Part shown: positions 6,746 through 33,384 of the stretch, one piece after another | Numbering within the stretch: the first letter of the stretch is position 1 | Layout: every line of letters begins with the position of its first letter | Source of the DNA: a virus | Reading direction: 5' to 3' (one strand) | Length of the DNA: 33,384 bases | IMG/VR virus record: IMGVR_UViG_3300032046_000123 | Span: 1-33,384 of that record | Program-made: the position numbers and the translations under genes | Notes under the pieces: model-generated | What the model saw: only the letters and a program-made list of their open reading frames with translations | The model's database searches: none | Told to the model about the DNA's origin: nothing

Positions 6746-7553
6746 AATCCTGATCTGGATGAAAACCATGTGGACCCGCTGGGCGCCCAATGACGCCGAG
6801 TGGGACTCCTGGACCCGACTCCTCGAACGCTTGGCCGACCCCGGCGCAGTTCGGCAGGCCCTGCAAACCCTCCGCGACACGACCGACTGGACCTCGCCCA
6901 AACGGGCGCAGCTCCTGGAAATCCTCAACAAGAGCACCACCCGCGGGAACCGGAGCAATGCCAGGCACGCCGGACACTCGGGCATGTACATCCAGTGCGT
7001 GAGTTGCAAGTCGCCACCCAGCACGACTCCGAATGTGGCAGGCGAACCGCGATATATTGCCCGTCGCGCGAACGATGGGTTTCTTGGCGAGTTCAGGACG
7101 CTGTACTGGCCGACGGACCATGACATGCCTCCAGAGCATGTTATCCTCGAGCGCATGGAAGAGTTTAGGGTTCTGAACCAAGCCACGTATGGCGGCACGT
7201 GGCAGTTGGTACGCTCGCTGCAAGGGCCGCTTGACGACGGCGCCATGATTCGCCGCCGGGCAGAGCTACGGCCAGCCAGCACCCGACGAGGCCCCTTGTG
7301 GCGACTAATCCAGGCTTCCATTGACAAGTTGCAGGGCCTGCCCCCGCAAGAGTACGCTGCTGACGAGCAGCCGGCAGAGGAGTACAAGGGGACCCCCAAG
7401 CGGTCCGGGCCCGAGCCCGATCACGAGCGCAAGCCGATCCGCCAAGCAATCACAGACTTCATGGCGGGCAAACCGCAGCCGCACCGTCCCCCGCCGGACT
7501 GCCCCGGCCCGGAGCTACCCGTGTGCCCCGACCTGGGCGAGGAGCCGTTCTGA
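6723..7553 (+). CDS. Hypothetical protein in helicase-loader position
   Basis: Encodes 276 residues. ATG at 6723 is chosen over an in-frame TTG at 6717 because AGGAG (6711-6715) lies 7 bases upstream. The first 70 residues are helical ('AAAEILIWMKTMWTRWAPNDAEWDSWTRLLERLADPGAVRQAL'). A single 'CVSC' lies near residue 95. The C-terminal 60 residues are Pro/Lys-rich and probably disordered. Immediately after an initiator-like gene, phages often encode a helicase loader (lambda P, DnaC-like), but no Walker motif is visible, so this is a positional guess. It is the last gene before a structured intergenic region. Confidence 0.6.
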   Translation: MDSTAAAEILIWMKTMWTRWAPNDAEWDSWTRLLERLADPGAVRQALQTLRDTTDWTSPKRAQLLEILNKSTTRGNRSNARHAGHSGMYIQCVSCKSPPSTTPNVAGEPRYIARRANDGFLGEFRTLYWPTDHDMPPEHVILERMEEFRVLNQATYGGTWQLVRSLQGPLDDGAMIRRRAELRPASTRRGPLWRLIQASIDKLQGLPPQEYAADEQPAEEYKGTPKRSGPEPDHERKPIRQAITDFMAGKPQPHRPPPDCPGPELPVCPDLGEEPF

Positions 7554-7689: not shown

Positions 7690-7790
7690 TGGCGAAGGTG
7701 CAAGATGAAACCAAAACAACAGCCCGGCGCAGGGAGCATTTCGCCAGCAATGGCAACTTGCACCTTCAGCCCTGCGCCGGGTGTTTCATT
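7690..7790 (+). ncRNA. Candidate structured leader RNA with pseudoknot-type pairing
   Basis: Three perfect complementary pairs interleave. GAAGGTGCAAG (7694-7704) pairs with CTTGCACCTTC (7757-7767). CCCGGCGCAGGG (7723-7734) pairs with CCCTGCGCCGGG (7770-7781). ATGAAAC (7705-7711) pairs with GTTTCAT (7783-7789). The second and third nest with each other but cross the first, so the fold is either a pseudoknot or a two-state switch. GCCA-GCAA-TGGC (7743-7754) is a hairpin with a GNRA tetraloop. TGGCGAA (7690-7696) can alternatively pair with TTCGCCA (7740-7746). The element ends 3 bases before AGGAG of the gene at 7807, so control of its translation is likely. No known class recognised. Confidence 0.55.
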
Positions 7791-7806
7791 TCAGGAGACG
7801 AGAGCA

Positions 7807-8133
7807 ATGAGCAATGAGCAAGACAAGGCGACGGCGAGGCCGTGGGTGGTGGAACACGACGGCGAAAGTGACGAGAGGACCTACTTTCCAGTAATCACCT
7901 TTGGGGCGCGTAACATCGCGGTTGTCGAGGCGTACTATGGCGACGGCGCGGCCAACGCCGCGCTGATCGTCCGGGCGGTGAACGCGCACGACAAACTCGT
8001 CGCGGCGTGCGAACGGGCCGAGCGCCTTGTACAGCCCGGCAACGAACCGCGCGACGGCTGCCGGGGCATGTTCCCGGAACTGGTAACGCAACTTCGCGCC
8101 GCCCTGGCCCTGGCCCGCGAGGTGAAGCCATGA
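7807..8133 (+). CDS. Conserved small phage protein downstream of structured leader
   Basis: Encodes 108 residues. ATG at 7807 has AGGAG (7793-7797) ahead, immediately 3' of the structured leader. 'ARPWVVEHDGE', then 'DGAANAALIVRAVNAHDKLVAACERAERLV', follows a common phage layout in which an 'ANA..I..A.N....LV' helix precedes a coiled segment; the role of that family is unknown. The frame remains open upstream through the gap to 7321, but the leader structure and the ribosome binding site argue for 7807. The stop overlaps the next ATG. Confidence 0.7.
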   Translation: MSNEQDKATARPWVVEHDGESDERTYFPVITFGARNIAVVEAYYGDGAANAALIVRAVNAHDKLVAACERAERLVQPGNEPRDGCRGMFPELVTQLRAALALAREVKP

Positions 8134-8585
8134 GAGGCCAACTCGACTTGATCGGCGGGCTGCCGTTTGCCGAGACGATGGAAGTGCGGTTCACGCCGGC
8201 GGAACCAGCGGCCAAGTCTAAGCGAACCCGCCGCAAGCTGGCCCCCGTGGACAGCACTGGAGCGGCGGGGCTGGAATATCTCCTGCGCGAGCGGCAGGAG
8301 CCCTATGTCGCTGTCGATGAGGCGAAGAAGGCAATCTTCTCGGGCGCGGGCATCGAGGCATTCGACTTCTTGGTCTACCGCAAAGACGGTCCAAACCACT
8401 TGGTCTTGATCGTCCACGGCACACCAACGGCGGAACAGGATGCCCTACTGGCCGAGTGGGAGAAGGTCTTTGGCTCGGCCTTCATGGGCGTCTTCGTCTG
8501 CCGCCGAGCAAGCGGCTGGCAGGGCCGCACACGAACAAATGAAAACTGGACGCCGTATCTGACGGGCGAGGAGGGCGAGTTATGA
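8130..8585 (+). CDS. Divergent PD-(D/E)XK nuclease-like protein, catalytic residues lost
   Basis: Encodes 151 residues; the ATGA overlap fixes the start at 8130. Residues 48-110 ('GLEYLLRERQEPYVAVDEAKKAIF', 'AFDFLVYRKDGPNHLVLIVHG') resemble, from memory, a nuclease-fold family common in Planctomycetota whose members read 'FDF.VY...GPNLLVEVKGR' and continue with 'W...FG..F...LVF', as here ('EWEKVFGSAFMGVFV'). The core Asp (D79) is kept, but the expected E-x-K is I94-V-H96, so catalysis is doubtful. It could be a decoy, regulator or DNA-binding remnant acquired from a host. Moderately sure of the fold, unsure of the function. Confidence 0.5.
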   Translation: MRGQLDLIGGLPFAETMEVRFTPAEPAAKSKRTRRKLAPVDSTGAAGLEYLLRERQEPYVAVDEAKKAIFSGAGIEAFDFLVYRKDGPNHLVLIVHGTPTAEQDALLAEWEKVFGSAFMGVFVCRRASGWQGRTRTNENWTPYLTGEEGEL

Positions 8586-9387: not shown

Positions 9388-9882
9388 ATGAGCGATGGGA
9401 AAGCCTTGACTGCCTTTGAGCCGAGCGAACATCAGAGAGGTGTCCTATCTGCTTTTCAAGACGCGGATTATGGCTGTCGGGTGCAAGATGCGTGTCAAGC
9501 CGCGGGGATTTCCAAGCAGGCGTACTACCTATGGTTCGATAATTCCGATTTCGCGGACTGGTGGAAGAACCAGGCCAATCGCTTTTTCGCCTTACAGTCT
9601 GGCCGGGTCCAGCACGCGACTTTGATGTCGGCAACGACGGATGCGCCGGGCGATCCTCGGGCCCAGAAGCTCTACTTCGAGCGAAATGACCACGACTACT
9701 GCCCTCGGCAGCGGCAGGAGATTGCCGCCGAGGTCGAGGTGACACATGGAGTCGACCCCACAGAGTTGTGCGAGCTCGCTGCTGCTGCAATGTCCGCGCG
9801 ACCTGGCCCGGAACCTGACGTGGCGCCGGTGGGCACTGACGGCGGCTGCGAAAAACAAGAGCCTCCAGCACCAGTGGCTTAG
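9388..9882 (+). CDS. Putative terminase small subunit
   Basis: Encodes 164 residues. Residues about 29-57 ('GCRVQDACQAAGISKQAYYLWF') form a helix-turn-helix of the type used by small terminases to bind packaging DNA. 'ARALTLMSATTDAPGDPRAQKLYFERND'-like helical text follows (residues about 72-105 here: 'QHATLMSATTDAPGDPRAQK'), as in phBC6A51-type subunits. It directly precedes and overlaps the large subunit. No clear Shine-Dalgarno lies ahead of ATG 9388; an in-frame TTG at 9406 is an alternative. The last 45 residues overlap the large-subunit gene and are low-complexity. Confidence 0.7.
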   Translation: MSDGKALTAFEPSEHQRGVLSAFQDADYGCRVQDACQAAGISKQAYYLWFDNSDFADWWKNQANRFFALQSGRVQHATLMSATTDAPGDPRAQKLYFERNDHDYCPRQRQEIAAEVEVTHGVDPTELCELAAAAMSARPGPEPDVAPVGTDGGCEKQEPPAPVA

Positions 9883-11632
9883 TGCTTGCGGTGCTGGGCC
9901 GGACGGTCTGGTGCTGTGGGTCGATACGTTCGCCTGGGTGTTTGAGCCGAGGCCGGGTGGCCTGATCGAAGGCCTGCGGGCCGTGCCGTTCGTCGCCTGG
10001 CCGGTTCAGGAAGACGCACTGCGAGAGTTGTACGATGCGATCACACGAGGTCACGACGTGCTGATGGACAAGAGCAGAGACATGGGTGCGAGCTGGCTGT
10101 GCCTGCTGGCGATAAGCTGGTTCTGGCTGTTCGAGCCGGCGTTCGCGGCGACTCTGGCCTCGCGCGTCGAGGACCTGGTCGACCGGCGAGGGGATCCCGA
10201 CTCCCTCATGTGGAAGTGCGATTTCGTCCGCGATCGCCTGCCCGTCTGGATGCGGCCGAAACTCCGCCGTCAAGCCTTACATGTCGAAAACCTCGACAAC
10301 GGCTCGGTGATAGACGGCTCGTCCACCAACCAGGACCTCTCCCGCGGCGGGCGCCGCCGGGTGATCCTGCTCGACGAGTTTGCGGCCGTGGACCAAGGCG
10401 ACTCGATCTACCGGAGCACATCCGACGCTACAACCTGCCGGCTATTCAACAGCACACCAAAGGGCATGGGCCAGTTCGACGAGGCCGGCAACCTGCGCGG
10501 CAATGCGTTCGGGGCGATCCGACACAGCGGCAGGATCAAGGTCCTTACGTTGCACTGGTCGAGGCACCCGACGAAGGGCCGGGGCCTGTACAGGGCCACG
10601 GACACGGCGGTTGAGCGTCTCGATGATGCTGCGCTGCCTGCCGGCTACCCGTTCGTCTGTGATGGCAAAATGCGCTCGCCTTGGTATGACTCCGAGTGCG
10701 CTCGGCGTGTGAGCAAGCGGGATGTGGCTGAAAACCTGGACATCGACTATCTGGGGTCCGGGGATATGTTCTTCGACGCGGATGTGCTTCGCGACCTGCG
10801 GGCGAGTGGCCAGCTTGTAACGCCAACGAGGCGGGGTTCCATTGCGTTCCGGCTCGAGGCCACGGCAGAGGGCCGGGCGATGCGGCTCGATCTGCTGTCG
10901 CAACCGTGGCGCGATGAACGGCTTGGCTGGTTCTCCTGGTGGGGCGACTTGGACGATGATGGACGGCCCGCCAAGCGGGATGGGCGAGTCTTCGCCGCGT
11001 TCGCGGACATCGGCTTGGGCACGGGGGCGAGCAATTCGACGCTTGCTGTGGGCGACATGACTACCGGCGAGGTTGTTGGTCTGGGTGTCTCGGCGGTGCA
11101 CAGCCCGGAGGAGTGGGCCCGATGCAGCGTGGCCGCTTGCCGCTGGCTGGGCGGGCAACAAGACTGCCTGCTCGGTTGGGAGACCAACGGCGGTCATGGA
11201 TTGTTATTTGGCCGCGAGGTCTGGCGACTCCAGTGGTCGAGACTGATGGGTAAGGCAAATGCGAAACTGCCTTGGCAACCCGGCCAACACGGGATCGGTT
11301 GGACTAGCGATCGGGCGAGTAAGCACTTGCTGCTCGGTGAACTTCGCATCGGTCTTGCCCGGCGGGCGATCATCCTGCATGACACGGCGACGGTTGGCGA
11401 GTTGGAGCAATACGTCTACTACGCCAACGGCGGTGTCGGCCCCGCGGATTTGGTCGAAGAACTTGAGGGTGCCAGGGATGCCCACGGCGACCGGGCACTA
11501 GCTCACGCCGGCTTGTGGCGGTGCATGAACATTCAGCGTGGGCCGGAAGCGGAGAGGAAGACCGCCCCGCCCGGCAGTTACGCCTGGATGGTGGAACAGG
11601 AGCAGGCGGCGAAACGACAGAAGGAAGACTGA
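9746..11632 (+). CDS. terL: Terminase large subunit (ATPase-nuclease)
   Basis: Encodes 628 residues. It powers DNA translocation into the prohead and cuts the concatemer. The N-terminal ATPase shows a variant Walker A 'MDKSRDMGASW' (107-117) and Walker B 'VILLDEF' (206-212, D210/E211), followed by 'NSTPKG', a motif III-like coupling segment. The C-terminal RNase-H-like nuclease begins at 'FAAFADIGLGTG' (D421). No other ATG/GTG/TTG exists before the conserved N-terminus, and 'GAGGTG' precedes ATG 9746, so the 137-base overlap with the small subunit seems real. It ends TGATG into the portal gene. Confidence 0.9.
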   Translation: MESTPQSCASSLLLQCPRDLARNLTWRRWALTAAAKNKSLQHQWLSACGAGPDGLVLWVDTFAWVFEPRPGGLIEGLRAVPFVAWPVQEDALRELYDAITRGHDVLMDKSRDMGASWLCLLAISWFWLFEPAFAATLASRVEDLVDRRGDPDSLMWKCDFVRDRLPVWMRPKLRRQALHVENLDNGSVIDGSSTNQDLSRGGRRRVILLDEFAAVDQGDSIYRSTSDATTCRLFNSTPKGMGQFDEAGNLRGNAFGAIRHSGRIKVLTLHWSRHPTKGRGLYRATDTAVERLDDAALPAGYPFVCDGKMRSPWYDSECARRVSKRDVAENLDIDYLGSGDMFFDADVLRDLRASGQLVTPTRRGSIAFRLEATAEGRAMRLDLLSQPWRDERLGWFSWWGDLDDDGRPAKRDGRVFAAFADIGLGTGASNSTLAVGDMTTGEVVGLGVSAVHSPEEWARCSVAACRWLGGQQDCLLGWETNGGHGLLFGREVWRLQWSRLMGKANAKLPWQPGQHGIGWTSDRASKHLLLGELRIGLARRAIILHDTATVGELEQYVYYANGGVGPADLVEELEGARDAHGDRALAHAGLWRCMNIQRGPEAERKTAPPGSYAWMVEQEQAAKRQKED

Positions 11633-27675: not shown

Positions 27676-29325
27676 ATGCCACTGACAGGGATAAAAAAAC
27701 GAAGCCAGGAAGAACTGGATGAACTTCGCATCAGGAGCGGGTTGCCGAAGGCAGAACCACTGGTACCGGGAACGGGCATCCTCTCAGGCGGAAGTCAGAC
27801 GATGGAAATGTCCAGACCCGCCGCTCGCATTCTTGAGACCGGCCAAGGCGAGCGATTTGGTACAAGCAATCCCAGCCAATTCGGTGAATCTCGGCAGAAG
27901 CCAGACTACGAGGCCGGTCGGCAGCAACGGGTGATCGCGAATTACGAGAAGAACATCTTGCCAAATCTGCCCAGTTCCACATTTGCGCCAGCGGCCAAAC
28001 CCGCGCCGCGAGTTATCAGTCCCGCCGAAGTGCAGGGATGGACAAAGACGCTGACGGACCTATCGAATACCGGCACCAGCGAACAGGTCAATTCCTACAT
28101 CGGCGAGATGGACCGCCAAGGCATTCCGGTTCCGCCCTATCTGAGAGCAAGGGTCCAACTTGGCACCAAGCCGGAAGCCGGGATGCAACTCCGAATCCAG
28201 GCGGATGACATCATGGCCGAACGTGATGAGGGTAGGCAGCAACAAAAGGCCATGCGCTACCTTGGCAGTATTGATCCGGGCGGGGAACCCTTCTTCCTGG
28301 ACAGGACGAATCCCGATGACGTGAAACTGGTAGATCGGCTCACCAAACTGATCGACTATGGCAAAAAGGCCGGAAGTCGGGCATCAGATGCCGTCAAACT
28401 CGTCGAGGAGTTTCGCAAGGACCATCAGGACTATTTCGAGAGGAAAAGGAACGCCGTCGAGGCAACGAAGCGAAACGAAGACGCCGCTATCGGCAGAGAG
28501 CTACGGGCCCAGAAGGTTGCCGTCGTCAAAGAGGAACGGAAGGGTCGAACGACGGCTCTTCTCGATGAACGGAAGGATATTGACGTCCAGATGAAGGACC
28601 TGCGGGATGAACTCAAGAAAGCTCAGGACGAGGATCCCGACCGGGCGGCACAGATCGTTGCAGACTTGGCGGACCTACAAGAACAGCGCGACGAGATCAG
28701 CAACGAGTATCGCGGCTTGCTTGTAACGCCCGTAGAAGCAGAAACTGGGGCGGCGGCACCTACGGTCTCTGCCGACATCGCCGGCGAGATAACTGCCGGG
28801 CAGGGACAGGCCCCGCCACCGGCCCCCGGCGGCGTCCCGGCGGCTCCGAGCGCCACGACAGCCCCACAGGCCCCGCCAGCAGTGCCGGCAACCACCCCGC
28901 CCGCCGGTCCTGCCGTCAATCCCAACGAGGTGAAGTTCGCTAAGACATGGTATGGCGACCACCACGAGACGAACAAGCAACGGAATAGTCTGTTGTCCAA
29001 ACTCGAAGAGGCCAGGCGCTATCTTTCCCAGGATGCAGTTAACGACTTGCAGAGAACCCAGGCCCAAGAAGAGATCGACTCTCTCGTGGTCCAGGTGGAC
29101 AAGATCAATGGCAACCACGCCAACCGGCTTGTACAAGACTTCATGGGTGAACTTACCAAGCGAACTGGCGGAACCCGCGAAAAGGATGCTGACGCGACGA
29201 CAGTAAGGAACAGGGGCATAGCCCGCAAGATGTTCAAGGAAATGGAACCCGCGCTCGACAGGTTGCCGCCAGACGTGTTCAAGATGTTTGCCCGGTTTAT
29301 GAAAGATAAGGACCTGCTTGAATGA
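27676..29325 (+). CDS. Putative internal or tail-associated protein with coiled coil and Pro-Ala linker
   Basis: Encodes 549 residues. Residues ~1-100 are disordered; 100-230 helical; 240-355 a strongly charged coiled coil ('KRNEDAAIGRELRAQKVAVVKEERKGRTTALLDERKDIDVQMKDLRDELKK'); ~375-415 a Pro/Ala linker; then a helical C-terminal domain. It is coupled (ATGA) to the giant gene that follows. Elongated, modular architecture next to a probable ejected protein suggests an internal or ejected virion protein; no family recognised. Confidence 0.55.
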   Translation: MPLTGIKKRSQEELDELRIRSGLPKAEPLVPGTGILSGGSQTMEMSRPAARILETGQGERFGTSNPSQFGESRQKPDYEAGRQQRVIANYEKNILPNLPSSTFAPAAKPAPRVISPAEVQGWTKTLTDLSNTGTSEQVNSYIGEMDRQGIPVPPYLRARVQLGTKPEAGMQLRIQADDIMAERDEGRQQQKAMRYLGSIDPGGEPFFLDRTNPDDVKLVDRLTKLIDYGKKAGSRASDAVKLVEEFRKDHQDYFERKRNAVEATKRNEDAAIGRELRAQKVAVVKEERKGRTTALLDERKDIDVQMKDLRDELKKAQDEDPDRAAQIVADLADLQEQRDEISNEYRGLLVTPVEAETGAAAPTVSADIAGEITAGQGQAPPPAPGGVPAAPSATTAPQAPPAVPATTPPAGPAVNPNEVKFAKTWYGDHHETNKQRNSLLSKLEEARRYLSQDAVNDLQRTQAQEEIDSLVVQVDKINGNHANRLVQDFMGELTKRTGGTREKDADATTVRNRGIARKMFKEMEPALDRLPPDVFKMFARFMKDKDLLE

Positions 29326-32300
29326 GTCTTCAAAGCGGCATACTCGAAAGACTTCGCAAGGCGGCAGAAGAACCCGAACCGGACTATTCGGATATTCGCA
29401 TCGGCACACGAGAGCAGGAGGCGGAACAGAATGCCGCAATCACGGGCATGTACGCTCGCCAAGTCGGGGAAATGGCTACCCGGCCAGTGCGAACGCCTCC
29501 TGTCTTACCACCTTATCCGGCCAAGGAGCCGGTCTACACCGATTCAACCAACAAGCGAACCGTCGCAGAATATGCTCCCTTAATACTTGGGAGACAGCCG
29601 CTCTCGCTTCGCCCGCCCAGTATTCTTGACCGCATGCGCGTGGCCGCGGCGGATACTCGCAGTCTGACCGATATTCGGACTGGCAGGGATAGACCGCTTC
29701 TCACCGAGTCCTTTGAACCTGGCCCGCCGCCTTCTCCTGGAAAGATAGGTCCCCTGGAACGCATCGAAAAGAAGTTCACGGCCAATCCTCTGTCCTTGAT
29801 TCCGGTCGCTTCCACAGTCGAAGAAATGGTTGACACGCATCATCTGTTTCTGGCTGCCGACGTGGATGAGATGAATCGGGACTTCGTTACCTACAACATC
29901 TACGATCCCGTCAAACAGCGGGAGTGGGTCAAGAGTAAGGCTCCTTGGCTTGAAGGTCAACTTCCGGCTATTGGACTTGGCTCTATTGGGCAAGCACTCT
30001 CTCCCGATGTCCTGTTTGATGATCCGACCAGGTATGCGGAAGACTTCACCATGCGCTGGGAAAGCGCTACGAAAGCCTCTCAGAAGGTCCTTGGTGATTT
30101 CATAGTTAAACTGGCCGATGATAAAGCCGGCGACGACTGGATGGCACAGGTTGCCAGCGGTGCTATTGACTTGACTCCCTACGCCCTTGAGTTTGTCATC
30201 ACTGCCGGTCTTGCCGAAACCGCCGCGTTGCCGGTTAAGATCGCGGCCCGCAAACTCCTGAAGAAGTACGGCGAAACACTTGTAGCCAAACACCTCATCA
30301 CCTCTACGGCATACATGGCAAAACTCGCCGTGCGTGCCGGCGTGCGCGGGGCAACGATAGGCTTGGCCAAGACGACCGAGGAAACCATCCAAAGAATGTA
30401 CGGGGAGATAGGATTCGACGAGACCGGCAAACTCGTCACCTTGGGCGGTGAGCCATTCTTGAAGGCGTTCGGCAAGGCGATTGCGAGTACGTTTGTCAGT
30501 TACTTCTCTGAAGAAACTGGTGAGATCGTCACTGGCGGACTCAAGAAGGTTGGTGGAGTGGCTTTATCCACGATACCAGGCGCAAAGAAGTATGTCGGCA
30601 AATTGGCTGAGAAACTCATGGCGGCTCTGCCCAAAGGAACAACGACTGCGGAGTTTCTCAGGATGATGAAGTACGACGGTCTGGTTGGCGAAATCGGCGA
30701 GGAAGGAGTTGAACGTATCATCCGGTCGGCGACGAGTCTTGATGAAGTCCCTATCCTGGAGGCTCTCTGGCCGGGCTGGGAGCAGATATTTGTAGAGGCG
30801 ATGGTCCTAGGTTTTCCGGGCGCTATTGGCATGGTGTCGGGGGCCTTCCAAATCCCTGAAGCCAAACGGATCGCGGGGCGGAAAGCGAACTACGAATATC
30901 GGGTCAAAGAATACGAACGTCGGGCCAATCTGGCGGTTCAGGCGGAAGAGGAAATTGCCCCGGAGGCCGAGAGGCGTGAAACTGAATATCAGGCGTGGTG
31001 GGAGAGAGCGGCACCTACCAGGGAGCGGGCGGCAGGCATCCAGGCAGAGCGGGAAGCCAAGACGTGGGCCGAGCGACAAGCAGCAGACCGGGAGATTGAG
31101 ACCCGAGATTTGCGCGCAATCGAAGCCCAACAGCGCAAGGTCGGCGAAGAAATCCTCATCCGCCAACAGAACGCCGAAGAGCGAACCAAGGTTGCCGCCG
31201 AAATCGAGGTAAGAAAACGGGGACGGGTCCAGCGAGAACTCGATCTGCGGCAAGACAATCTTCAACAACTTGAAATTGGTCAACGAGTCGATGCCATCCT
31301 GCAACCAGTGTACGAACTCGCGGACAAGGTGGGCGCCAGTAATCCCGGTTCTGCCTTCGGAAAGGCTAACAGTGAACTCTTGGGCAGACTCCAGGCCGCA
31401 ATCGAGGCAAATGATCCCCGTGCTGTCCAAACCGTTATCCCGGAACTGACGGAATCGTTGAACGTATACGGAAGGATCAAGGCGACCAGAGCCAAGGAGA
31501 GGGAGCAGCGCAACCTCCGCAAGACTGGCCGGATCGAGCCCGAGGCACCAAAACCGGAGTTGACTGTTGCTGATCACCGTCTTCAGAGGAGACAGGAAAT
31601 CAAGCAAAGGCGCGTGGAGGCCCAACAAGCCAAGTACACCCCGACGCGCACAGCCCGTAGACCCGCGGCGGAACTGACCCGTGAAGAGTATATCAACCAG
31701 GAGCGGGAGGACTTGCGGATCGGCGACAAGGTGGAGTACCAAGGGAAGCCGCACACCGTTGTTCACACATGGGCAAACATCTGGTCTGCGGCAAGGCCGG
31801 AAGAGATACCGAGTCACGTCACGATCCGCAATGAGAACAACATCGACAAGAAGGTCGAATCGGGCCAGGTTGCCAAGATGGATTTTGACAAGGCGACGGC
31901 AGGCCAGGAATATGATAAGGCGATCGGGAAGAAGGAGATCACCCATGCCGAAGAAGTACGAACACATGAGAGACCAGTTCGTGCGCCAGGGCCTGCCGCT
32001 GAAGGAGGCCAAGTCGCGGGCGGCGAGAACCTACATCGGCCAGTCCAAGAACCACAGCGCGGCGGCGAAGCGGCTGCACCACAAGTAAAGCGCGGTGCCG
32101 AACCATTCGACCCGTTCAAATCCCCGCCGTTCACGCGAGAGACAGTGAACCCGACAGAGATCGGAGTTCATCCCAAGATTCAGTATAAACGCGGCGCGGG
32201 CGAGCGCGGCGTTACCGGTAGTTTGACGGGCGTCCTTAAATGGAATCCGGCGGCGGCGGAACCGATGTTTGTCTGGACCGACCCGGAAACCGGCAAAGTC

Positions 32301-33384
32301 GTGGTCGTGGACGGCCACCAACGACTTGAGCGGGCGCGAACACTTGGCAAGGGCAGTATCGAAGTCAACCACATTGTGCAAGAAGCCTTTGCTGATGCCA
32401 AGGAGGCGCGGGCCTGGGGCGGAATCCAAAACATCATGCGCGGCAATGGAACCGCCGAAGATGCTGCCGCCCTGTTCAGGGAAACCGGGATAACGCTGGC
32501 GAACCTGAACAATCACGGCGTATCGGTCAAAGAAGGTGTTGCTGCCAAAGGCATGGCTCTGTCCCGACTTTGCGAACAGTTGTGGGGCATGGTTACACAT
32601 GGAGAAGTGTCCGAGAACATCGCTGTCGAGATCGGTTCGCGACTTGAGAAGTCGAGCGATCAGATGGCGGCATGGCAACTCATTAAGAAGAAACTAACGA
32701 ACGGCAGAACGATTCCGCCAAGTCTCCTGCGTGAGATCGTCTCAGAGGTGGGCGGTGCGGACAGGACGACAGAGAAACAAGGTGTCCTTTGGGGTGTCGA
32801 GGAATATGAGCGAAATCTTGCCATCGAGAAGGCGCAGGTCGCAGATGCCCTGCGGAAAGTAATCCGGCGTGAGGCGAAGACATTTGGGTTCAATGCCAGC
32901 GAGGCGCGGGCAGAAGAGTTGACCCGCGCCGGCAATGTAATCGACACCGAGGCGAACAAGGCGATTTCTGCCGACGCCAAGATCGCCGAGTTCTATTTCG
33001 ACAAATTGCGTTACCAAAAGGGACCGCTTCAGGATATACTACAAGTGGCGGCGAGAGACGTTGCCGCTGGGAAAGAGGCAAAAGATGTTGCCCAAGAAAA
33101 CTACGAGGCCGTCCGCGACGCCATACGAACCGCTGAGCGCGGAGGGCAAGGCGAGAGTCTTGCGAATGGCGAAGTGGGCGCAGGACGAACGCAAGAAGGT
33201 GCTGCCGCCGAGACGCAGGCCAAAGTAGGACTTTTCGGAGAAGGTACTGCTCCCGCCGCCCCAAAGGCCAAGCCAAAGGCGGAAGCACCAAAGGCCAAAC
33301 CACCCAAGACACCCAAGGTAGTTGACATCGCGGACCTCTCGGAAGAGGACCTAGAGAAACTCCTGAACGAGGAAGGTGCCGACG
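29322..33384 (+). CDS. Giant polyvalent-type phage protein with ParB-like domain, 3' end cut off
   Basis: I read the frame without a stop from ATG 29322 to the window edge (1,354 codons). Segments: disordered N-terminus (1-130); alpha-helical membrane-active-like region (~280-350 'LTPYALEFVITAGLAETAALPVK', ~494-511); Arg/Glu/Gln coiled coil (~515-660); Pro/Arg linker with a small SH3-like piece at ~796-845 ('IGDKVEYQGKPHTVVHTW'); second linker (~875-935); then a ParB-like domain with 'VVVDGHQRLERAR' (D997-G-H999-Q-R1001) and 'IQNIMRGNGT', followed by the helical 'GMALSRLCEQLW' extension and another Pro/Lys linker. Polyvalent proteins of this plan are packaged and injected to protect and process incoming DNA. 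Enzymatic domains may follow beyond the edge. Confidence 0.75.
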   Translation, partial: MSLQSGILERLRKAAEEPEPDYSDIRIGTREQEAEQNAAITGMYARQVGEMATRPVRTPPVLPPYPAKEPVYTDSTNKRTVAEYAPLILGRQPLSLRPPSILDRMRVAAADTRSLTDIRTGRDRPLLTESFEPGPPPSPGKIGPLERIEKKFTANPLSLIPVASTVEEMVDTHHLFLAADVDEMNRDFVTYNIYDPVKQREWVKSKAPWLEGQLPAIGLGSIGQALSPDVLFDDPTRYAEDFTMRWESATKASQKVLGDFIVKLADDKAGDDWMAQVASGAIDLTPYALEFVITAGLAETAALPVKIAARKLLKKYGETLVAKHLITSTAYMAKLAVRAGVRGATIGLAKTTEETIQRMYGEIGFDETGKLVTLGGEPFLKAFGKAIASTFVSYFSEETGEIVTGGLKKVGGVALSTIPGAKKYVGKLAEKLMAALPKGTTTAEFLRMMKYDGLVGEIGEEGVERIIRSATSLDEVPILEALWPGWEQIFVEAMVLGFPGAIGMVSGAFQIPEAKRIAGRKANYEYRVKEYERRANLAVQAEEEIAPEAERRETEYQAWWERAAPTRERAAGIQAEREAKTWAERQAADREIETRDLRAIEAQQRKVGEEILIRQQNAEERTKVAAEIEVRKRGRVQRELDLRQDNLQQLEIGQRVDAILQPVYELADKVGASNPGSAFGKANSELLGRLQAAIEANDPRAVQTVIPELTESLNVYGRIKATRAKEREQRNLRKTGRIEPEAPKPELTVADHRLQRRQEIKQRRVEAQQAKYTPTRTARRPAAELTREEYINQEREDLRIGDKVEYQGKPHTVVHTWANIWSAARPEEIPSHVTIRNENNIDKKVESGQVAKMDFDKATAGQEYDKAIGKKEITHAEEVRTHERPVRAPGPAAEGGQVAGGENLHRPVQEPQRGGEAAAPQVKRGAEPFDPFKSPPFTRETVNPTEIGVHPKIQYKRGAGERGVTGSLTGVLKWNPAAAEPMFVWTDPETGKVVVVDGHQRLERARTLGKGSIEVNHIVQEAFADAKEARAWGGIQNIMRGNGTAEDAAALFRETGITLANLNNHGVSVKEGVAAKGMALSRLCEQLWGMVTHGEVSENIAVEIGSRLEKSSDQMAAWQLIKKKLTNGRTIPPSLLREIVSEVGGADRTTEKQGVLWGVEEYERNLAIEKAQVADALRKVIRREAKTFGFNASEARAEELTRAGNVIDTEANKAISADAKIAEFYFDKLRYQKGPLQDILQVAARDVAAGKEAKDVAQENYEAVRDAIRTAERGGQGESLANGEVGAGRTQEGAAAETQAKVGLFGEGTAPAAPKAKPKAEAPKAKPPKTPKVVDIADLSEEDLEKLLNEEGAD
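31945..32088 (+). CDS. Small phage protein overprinted in +1 frame inside the giant gene
   Basis: Encodes 47 residues from ATG 31945 to TAA 32086-32088, in the +1 frame of the giant gene. AAGGAG (31932-31937) lies 7 bases ahead of the ATG. The sequence opens 'MPKKYEHMRDQFVRQGLPLK' and continues 'EAKSRAARTYIGQSKN', a pattern I recognise from a widespread family of ~50-residue phage and bacterial proteins ('MPK.YE.MRD.F...G...K.AK.KAARIYN'). The role of that family is unknown. In the giant frame the same bases encode a Pro/Gly/Arg/Glu linker, so the overlap costs little. The frame is open further upstream, but the text there is Arg/Ser shadow sequence. Confidence 0.7.
   Translation: MPKKYEHMRDQFVRQGLPLKEAKSRAARTYIGQSKNHSAAAKRLHHK

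Follow-up and report, generated by a model that had tools for sequence, protein, structure and literature searches.

A small basic phage protein probably encoded in the +1 phase within the linker of a giant gene, and its nested and separate relatives

Among the closest described cases of one phage gene lying inside another is Rz1 of phage lambda, which is embedded in Rz in the +1 phase, has its own start and is of a kind often missed by annotation programs; no spanin family contains both embedded and other architectures (PMC6139136). Embedded genes are considered rare in tailed phages by a phage annotation guide (PMC8785237). The giant polyvalent proteins, DarB and DdrB-like, are a second point of comparison (Iyer et al., 2017), and the accessible portion of that paper (PMC5512222) contains neither the word 'overlap' nor an account of genes inside genes. 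A literature search, which took in few subscription papers and so does not prove priority, turned up no account of genes lying within polyvalent genes; as far as this shows, and within the literature searched, genes inside polyvalent-protein linkers are new.

The DNA analysed here (the window) is a viral contig of 33,384 nucleotides, assigned to a tailed phage because it carries a terminase large subunit gene. Close to its end, an ORF of 47 codons lies wholly within a giant ORF, in the +1 phase relative to it (the start offset, 31945-29322, is 1 modulo 3). It runs from an ATG at 31945 to a TAA at 32086-32088 and encodes MPKKYEHMRDQFVRQGLPLKEAKSRAARTYIGQSKNHSAAAKRLHHK, and across the same stretch the outer frame reads HAEEVRTHERPVRAPGPAAEGGQVAGGENLHRPVQEPQRGGEAAAPQV. 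The features are listed in Table 1. The initial annotation had described a family-like small gene with a well-spaced Shine-Dalgarno sequence inside the linker of a giant protein, and each part of that description was borne out. We conclude, with a probability of roughly 0.86, that the nested ORF is a genuine protein-coding gene lying, in the +1 phase, where a giant phage protein has a linker between domains, that it would be initiated from its own Shine-Dalgarno sequence and that it most likely arrived by insertion or transfer.

Table 1. Coordinates of the features discussed (window positions unless a locus or accession is given).
Feature	Position	Strand	Remarks
Probable nested small gene	31945..32088	+	basic protein of 47 aa (net charge +9), predicted to form a helix-turn-helix hairpin
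Shine-Dalgarno AAGGAG	31932..31937	+	7-base spacer to nested ATG
Outer giant ORF	29322..33383	+	at least 1,354 codons, no stop, open at contig end
Outer-ORF linker opposite inner gene	31944..32087	+	read as G/P/A/E/R linker
Conserved outer part directly after linker	32097..33131	+	outer aa 926-1270; phrog_21 (portal) and giant-protein matches
Terminase large subunit gene	9746..11632	+	marks virus as tailed phage
94-105-aa nested protein (candidate) in DarB-like giants	L042:8256-8537	-	codon screen
94-105-aa nested protein (candidate), cultured-phage example	MH426726.1:32014-32328		+1 phase to giant gene, unannotated

It can be seen from the GC content by codon position that the coding signature changes within the outer gene, in the nested stretch only: there the inner frame takes over, with values of 0.56/0.40/0.92, against fairly steady values of about 0.64/0.45/0.62 in the rest of the gene. 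Codon usage was scored with a model trained on the genes of the window, among them the outer gene. Over the nested stretch this score preferred the inner frame by 21.9 bits, as compared with a mean of -33 and a maximum of +1.2 over 1,206 other windows of 47 codons in the outer gene. An HMM of the family described below, built with the window sequence withheld, matched the nested ORF with 60 bits (E 1e-16), and a six-frame search of the window with the same model gave no second match. Judged from the nucleotide sequence, translation of the small gene very probably begins from its own Shine-Dalgarno sequence.

The class of the outer protein was judged by PHROG and pairwise similarity only, since a Pfam search with it gave no match and thus no ddrB-ParB or other polyvalent domain. 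Residues 941-1270 match phrog_21 (portal) at 1e-37, the slightly longer stretch that follows the linker resembles giant proteins of Prochlorococcus, Ruegeria and uncultured phages (~30% identity), and there is a weak match to the ParB-like phrog_26387 (0.0067). Searches of viral contigs with the 47-residue peptide or the outer protein as single queries gave no relatives, and the collections hold no close relative of the window's contig; the figures for constraint given below therefore come from other copies.

Homologues of the small protein beyond this locus were nevertheless found by pattern searches of viral contigs. A degenerate DNA pattern for MPKxY...G.....AK, run on 2.9 million viral contigs, matched at least 119 stretches, of which about 100 of those listed are clear homologues, mostly of 43-75 residues; by our own estimate, chance would give about ten in the whole collection. 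These define a family of small basic phage proteins (the MPKxYE family) with, as a lower bound, at least about 80 distinct members. Residues M1, P2, K3, Y5, G16, A22, K23 and A27 are invariant in the family and present in the window's protein, an invariance that up to K23 is partly built in, as the search pattern fixed all of these residues except A27. Pattern matches at L008, L034, L071 and L101 lie outside the family or are doubtful, and were left out. A strict pattern run against 85k species of bacteria and archaea gave two MAG contigs, one of which (L126) is identical to the viral locus L036, and on these matches the family looks essentially viral.

The initial annotation had called the small gene a known one, which does not hold: the MPKxYE family is uncharacterised, having no Pfam or NCBIfam family. 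Searches of both databases with the 47-residue protein gave no credible match, and we regard a Pfam hit to P5CR_dimer (0.055) as chance for a two-helix hairpin. With tblastn the peptide found only matches of E 4 or worse in phages and none in plasmids. Among cultured phages, relatives of the small protein are limited to the N-terminus of a 361-residue protein of Thermus phages phiYS40 and TMA (phrog_32268), the first 35 residues of which resemble it weakly (E 3e-4 to 0.015; tblastn 1e-3); there, by contrast, the domain lies un-nested at the N-terminal end of a longer protein. One separate member showed a weak likeness to DUF7218 (PF23855) over 36 residues (E 0.019), but this does not establish membership, as this relative scores 15.6 of 27 bits, below the curated cut-off, and the window protein gave no match. 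At L028:4944-8078 (minus strand), a fusion of a prohead protease (S77) with a Gp23-like capsid protein begins, at its N-terminus, with a domain like the small protein.

Rare as embedded genes are held to be in tailed phages, about one third of the sampled family members are nested, a fraction of the matches listed from a pattern-biased sample. Of 84 distinct pattern members listed, 26, plus the window's, lie inside ORFs of 360-4,009 codons, and all 27 loci share one offset to the outer ORF. A second pattern gave one further nested locus (L152), so that the same gene is nested in at least 27 other environmental phages; L111 also seemed nested, but was dropped because its outer frame reads as non-coding. 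The outer giants are mosaic and mostly mutually unrelated around the nested site, and they include polyvalent proteins with ddrB-ParB, ART-PolyVal, RadC, SLT, helicase and phosphatase domains. PF18763 was found in only three of 35 contigs and is unusable as a marker for a census of polyvalent genes. The neighbours of separate members include portal, terminase, head-tail, major head and DNA polymerase genes.

How the gene came to lie in the linker has several potential explanations. The initial annotation had suggested, as one of two origins, engulfment, in which a small gene between two others became enclosed once loss of the upstream stop had fused its neighbours into one gene; this would fit the tight operons in which separate family members sit, and the giant gene of phage PBC5 is split near such a site. 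We consider it unlikely, however, for among 22 loci related to the L014/L085 giant the gene is present in those two only, and the gene-free relatives that were inspected are continuous giants with a plain P/A/E-rich linker at the site. Likewise, the giants of L085 and L087 have only the nested stretch in common and are otherwise unrelated. Because gene-free relatives have a plain linker and unrelated giants share the nested stretch alone, insertion or transfer into linkers is favoured over fusion. We also reason that the common stop-start overlaps (ATGA, TAATG) would place the upstream frame in the other phase. An unrooted tree of 81 members (49 columns) requires at least seven changes between the nested and the separate state on well-supported branches, each of them a gain or a loss of nesting.

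We therefore prefer a reading in which the small gene most likely came, by insertion or transfer, into a linker where any hydrophilic sequence is tolerated. Ribosomes that start at the nested Shine-Dalgarno sequence and ATG within the giant mRNA would make the basic helical protein of 47 residues, and those coming from the giant's own start would read the same bases as a flexible Gly/Pro/Glu/Gln-rich linker. The family exists in two states, as separate genes, often in the packaging or head region, and nested in giants.

Such an arrival could also have left an untranslated relic, a copy that recombination dropped into the linker and that is now read as outer linker only. The sporadic presence of the gene among the L014/L085 relatives (2/22) is what a relic might show, but the nested copies look translated. 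Shine-Dalgarno sequences of 5-6 nucleotides precede 19 of the 27 nested starts, as compared with 26 of 1,019 ATGs that lie in the same frame at other sites of these giants, and a recognisable one is missing at four of the 27. The divergent nested copies L085 and L100 have 28 of 31 residues identical in the inner frame and 16 of 31 in the outer, and their differences fall 5/0/14 at inner codon positions 1/2/3. Across all nested copies, with pattern-fixed codons omitted, inner position 3 is the most variable (0.53, against 0.43 and 0.42); the contrast is sharper in separate GC-rich genes (0.58 against 0.37 and 0.37), as expected if the outer frame adds some constraint to nested copies. We conclude that inner-frame constraint outweighs outer-frame constraint in nested copies. 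In the window copy, the inner-frame signature is seen in GC phase and codon score. The gene is also present once per phage, nested or separate, in 41 of 42 contigs tested. All this makes a relic distinctly improbable. The remaining contig has two equally scoring copies of the nested gene (G004, the contig of L016; 7561-7692 and 63371-63502, near both ends of its 65.5 kb), likely a terminal repeat or an assembly duplication.

A third explanation does without read-through of the outer frame: either the giant is two proteins, or ribosomes shift frame into the small gene. The annotation of PBC5, which divides the giant gene near a nested gene, could be taken this way. At 31 loci the outer phase is open at both 80-codon flanks, and at 28 of these it is also open across the gene itself, where codon resampling would give 12.0 (log10 P -12); this implies that the outer frame is kept open; the other two offsets gave 0/3 and 0/4 in the same test. 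Since the nested gene also has a Shine-Dalgarno sequence and ATG of its own, we hold the absence of read-through to be very improbable. The outer frame in use at nested genes reads G/E/A/Q/P, whereas the unused frame has 25% Arg and contains stops in 26 of 27 cases. The +1 phase is thus favoured because it gives a mostly stop-free, neutral-to-acidic linker, the other frame being Arg-rich and having stops.

The other origin suggested in the initial annotation was that overprinting had created the linker. In the corresponding history the protein would have arisen de novo by overprinting within a giant gene, and would have moved out only afterwards as a gene of its own. This history draws some room from the tree, which with 49 columns and no root leaves the direction of change unsettled, but separate genes are in the majority (54 of 81 members) and reach AT-rich phages, where stops close the outer frame, and we give this history only a very slight chance. 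Lastly, GC-rich DNA often contains long open frames in alternative phases, and one of 47 codons is unremarkable by itself (by resampling, the outer frame would stay open across the nested stretch with P 0.78), but the coding signature and the family membership contradict a chance ORF, which we dismiss.

A codon screen of 90 giant ORFs gave further nested candidates, all at the same offset: 198 residues in L091, 94 in L042, 58 in L095 and 50 in Ruegeria phage 45A6. The L091 candidate (6904-7500, plus strand) lies between the methyltransferase and helicase parts, with GAGGAGG upstream and a switch in GC phase, in the same giant ORF as a gene of the 47-residue family; identical copies are present in two contigs, one perhaps the same record, and no further relatives were found. 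Relatives of the L042 protein lie inside the annotated giants of Pavtok, PEp14, Stean, SopranoGao, Atu_ph08, VvAW1, POI1126 and Mwe-JY07 (offset 1 in 8/8), and inside an unannotated same-strand giant frame in Itty13. The hosts of this family of about 105 residues are cultured phages of Erwinia, Klebsiella, Agrobacterium, Vibrio, Ochrobactrum and Microcystis, and among seven cultured phages mean identity is 0.56 in the inner and 0.40 in the outer frame. The gene is annotated in none of the cultured-phage records examined.

A second nested candidate, of 76 residues, is found in the Erwinia phages Pavtok (L159:5523-5753), PEp14 (L160, from 5757) and Stean, with a GGAGG Shine-Dalgarno sequence and 68-74% identity among the three. 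The 50-residue candidate is common to 45A6 (L003:7006-7155) and PBC5 orf23 (L158:8001-8135), at 44% identity (E 3e-4) and in the +1 phase in both. In PBC5 (L163, ~7727-8303) the giant is annotated as orf33 and orf23, with a change of frame just before the nested gene, and this split may be natural or an old sequencing error. On balance we think that giant-gene linkers are a general home for nested genes, with unrelated families of 47, 50, 76, 105 and 198 residues, all in the +1 phase, moving between giants while the second reading serves as new linker, and that many phages with a DarB-like giant may hide them.

As the initial annotation had anticipated, one of two overlapping genes is skipped: the nested genes are unlisted in the records examined. 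Because gene callers drop one of the two, a class of conserved phage proteins would be absent from annotations, and cultured phages with sequenced genomes probably conceal further small genes within their giant genes. A family with both nested and separate versions allows direct comparison of the cost and benefit of nesting, and of the route by which genes enter genes.

AlphaFold predicts a confident helix-turn-helix over residues 1-30 of the small protein and a weaker tail (mean pLDDT 80.6). A fold search of solved structures (PDB) gave nothing significant, the best match (E 0.98) being taken as chance for a two-helix hairpin. The net charge across nested members is +5 to +17. Because of this positive charge and the head and packaging neighbourhood, we offer the weak guess that the protein might bind DNA or RNA, either late in infection or while heads are assembled.

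The arrangement resembles that of lambda Rz1 and Rz in that a small gene with its own start lies wholly inside another phage gene in the +1 phase. Rz1, however, is a lipoprotein partner of its host gene's product, whereas the product here is a basic helical protein, with neither a Cys nor a hydrophobic N-terminus in its 47 residues, and the outer gene, unlike lambda Rz, is giant, reaching ~4,000 codons. Several of the outer giants share the defining domains of the polyvalent proteins (DarB, DdrB-like; Iyer et al., 2017). Unlike any spanin family (PMC6139136), the MPKxYE family has both embedded and separate members.
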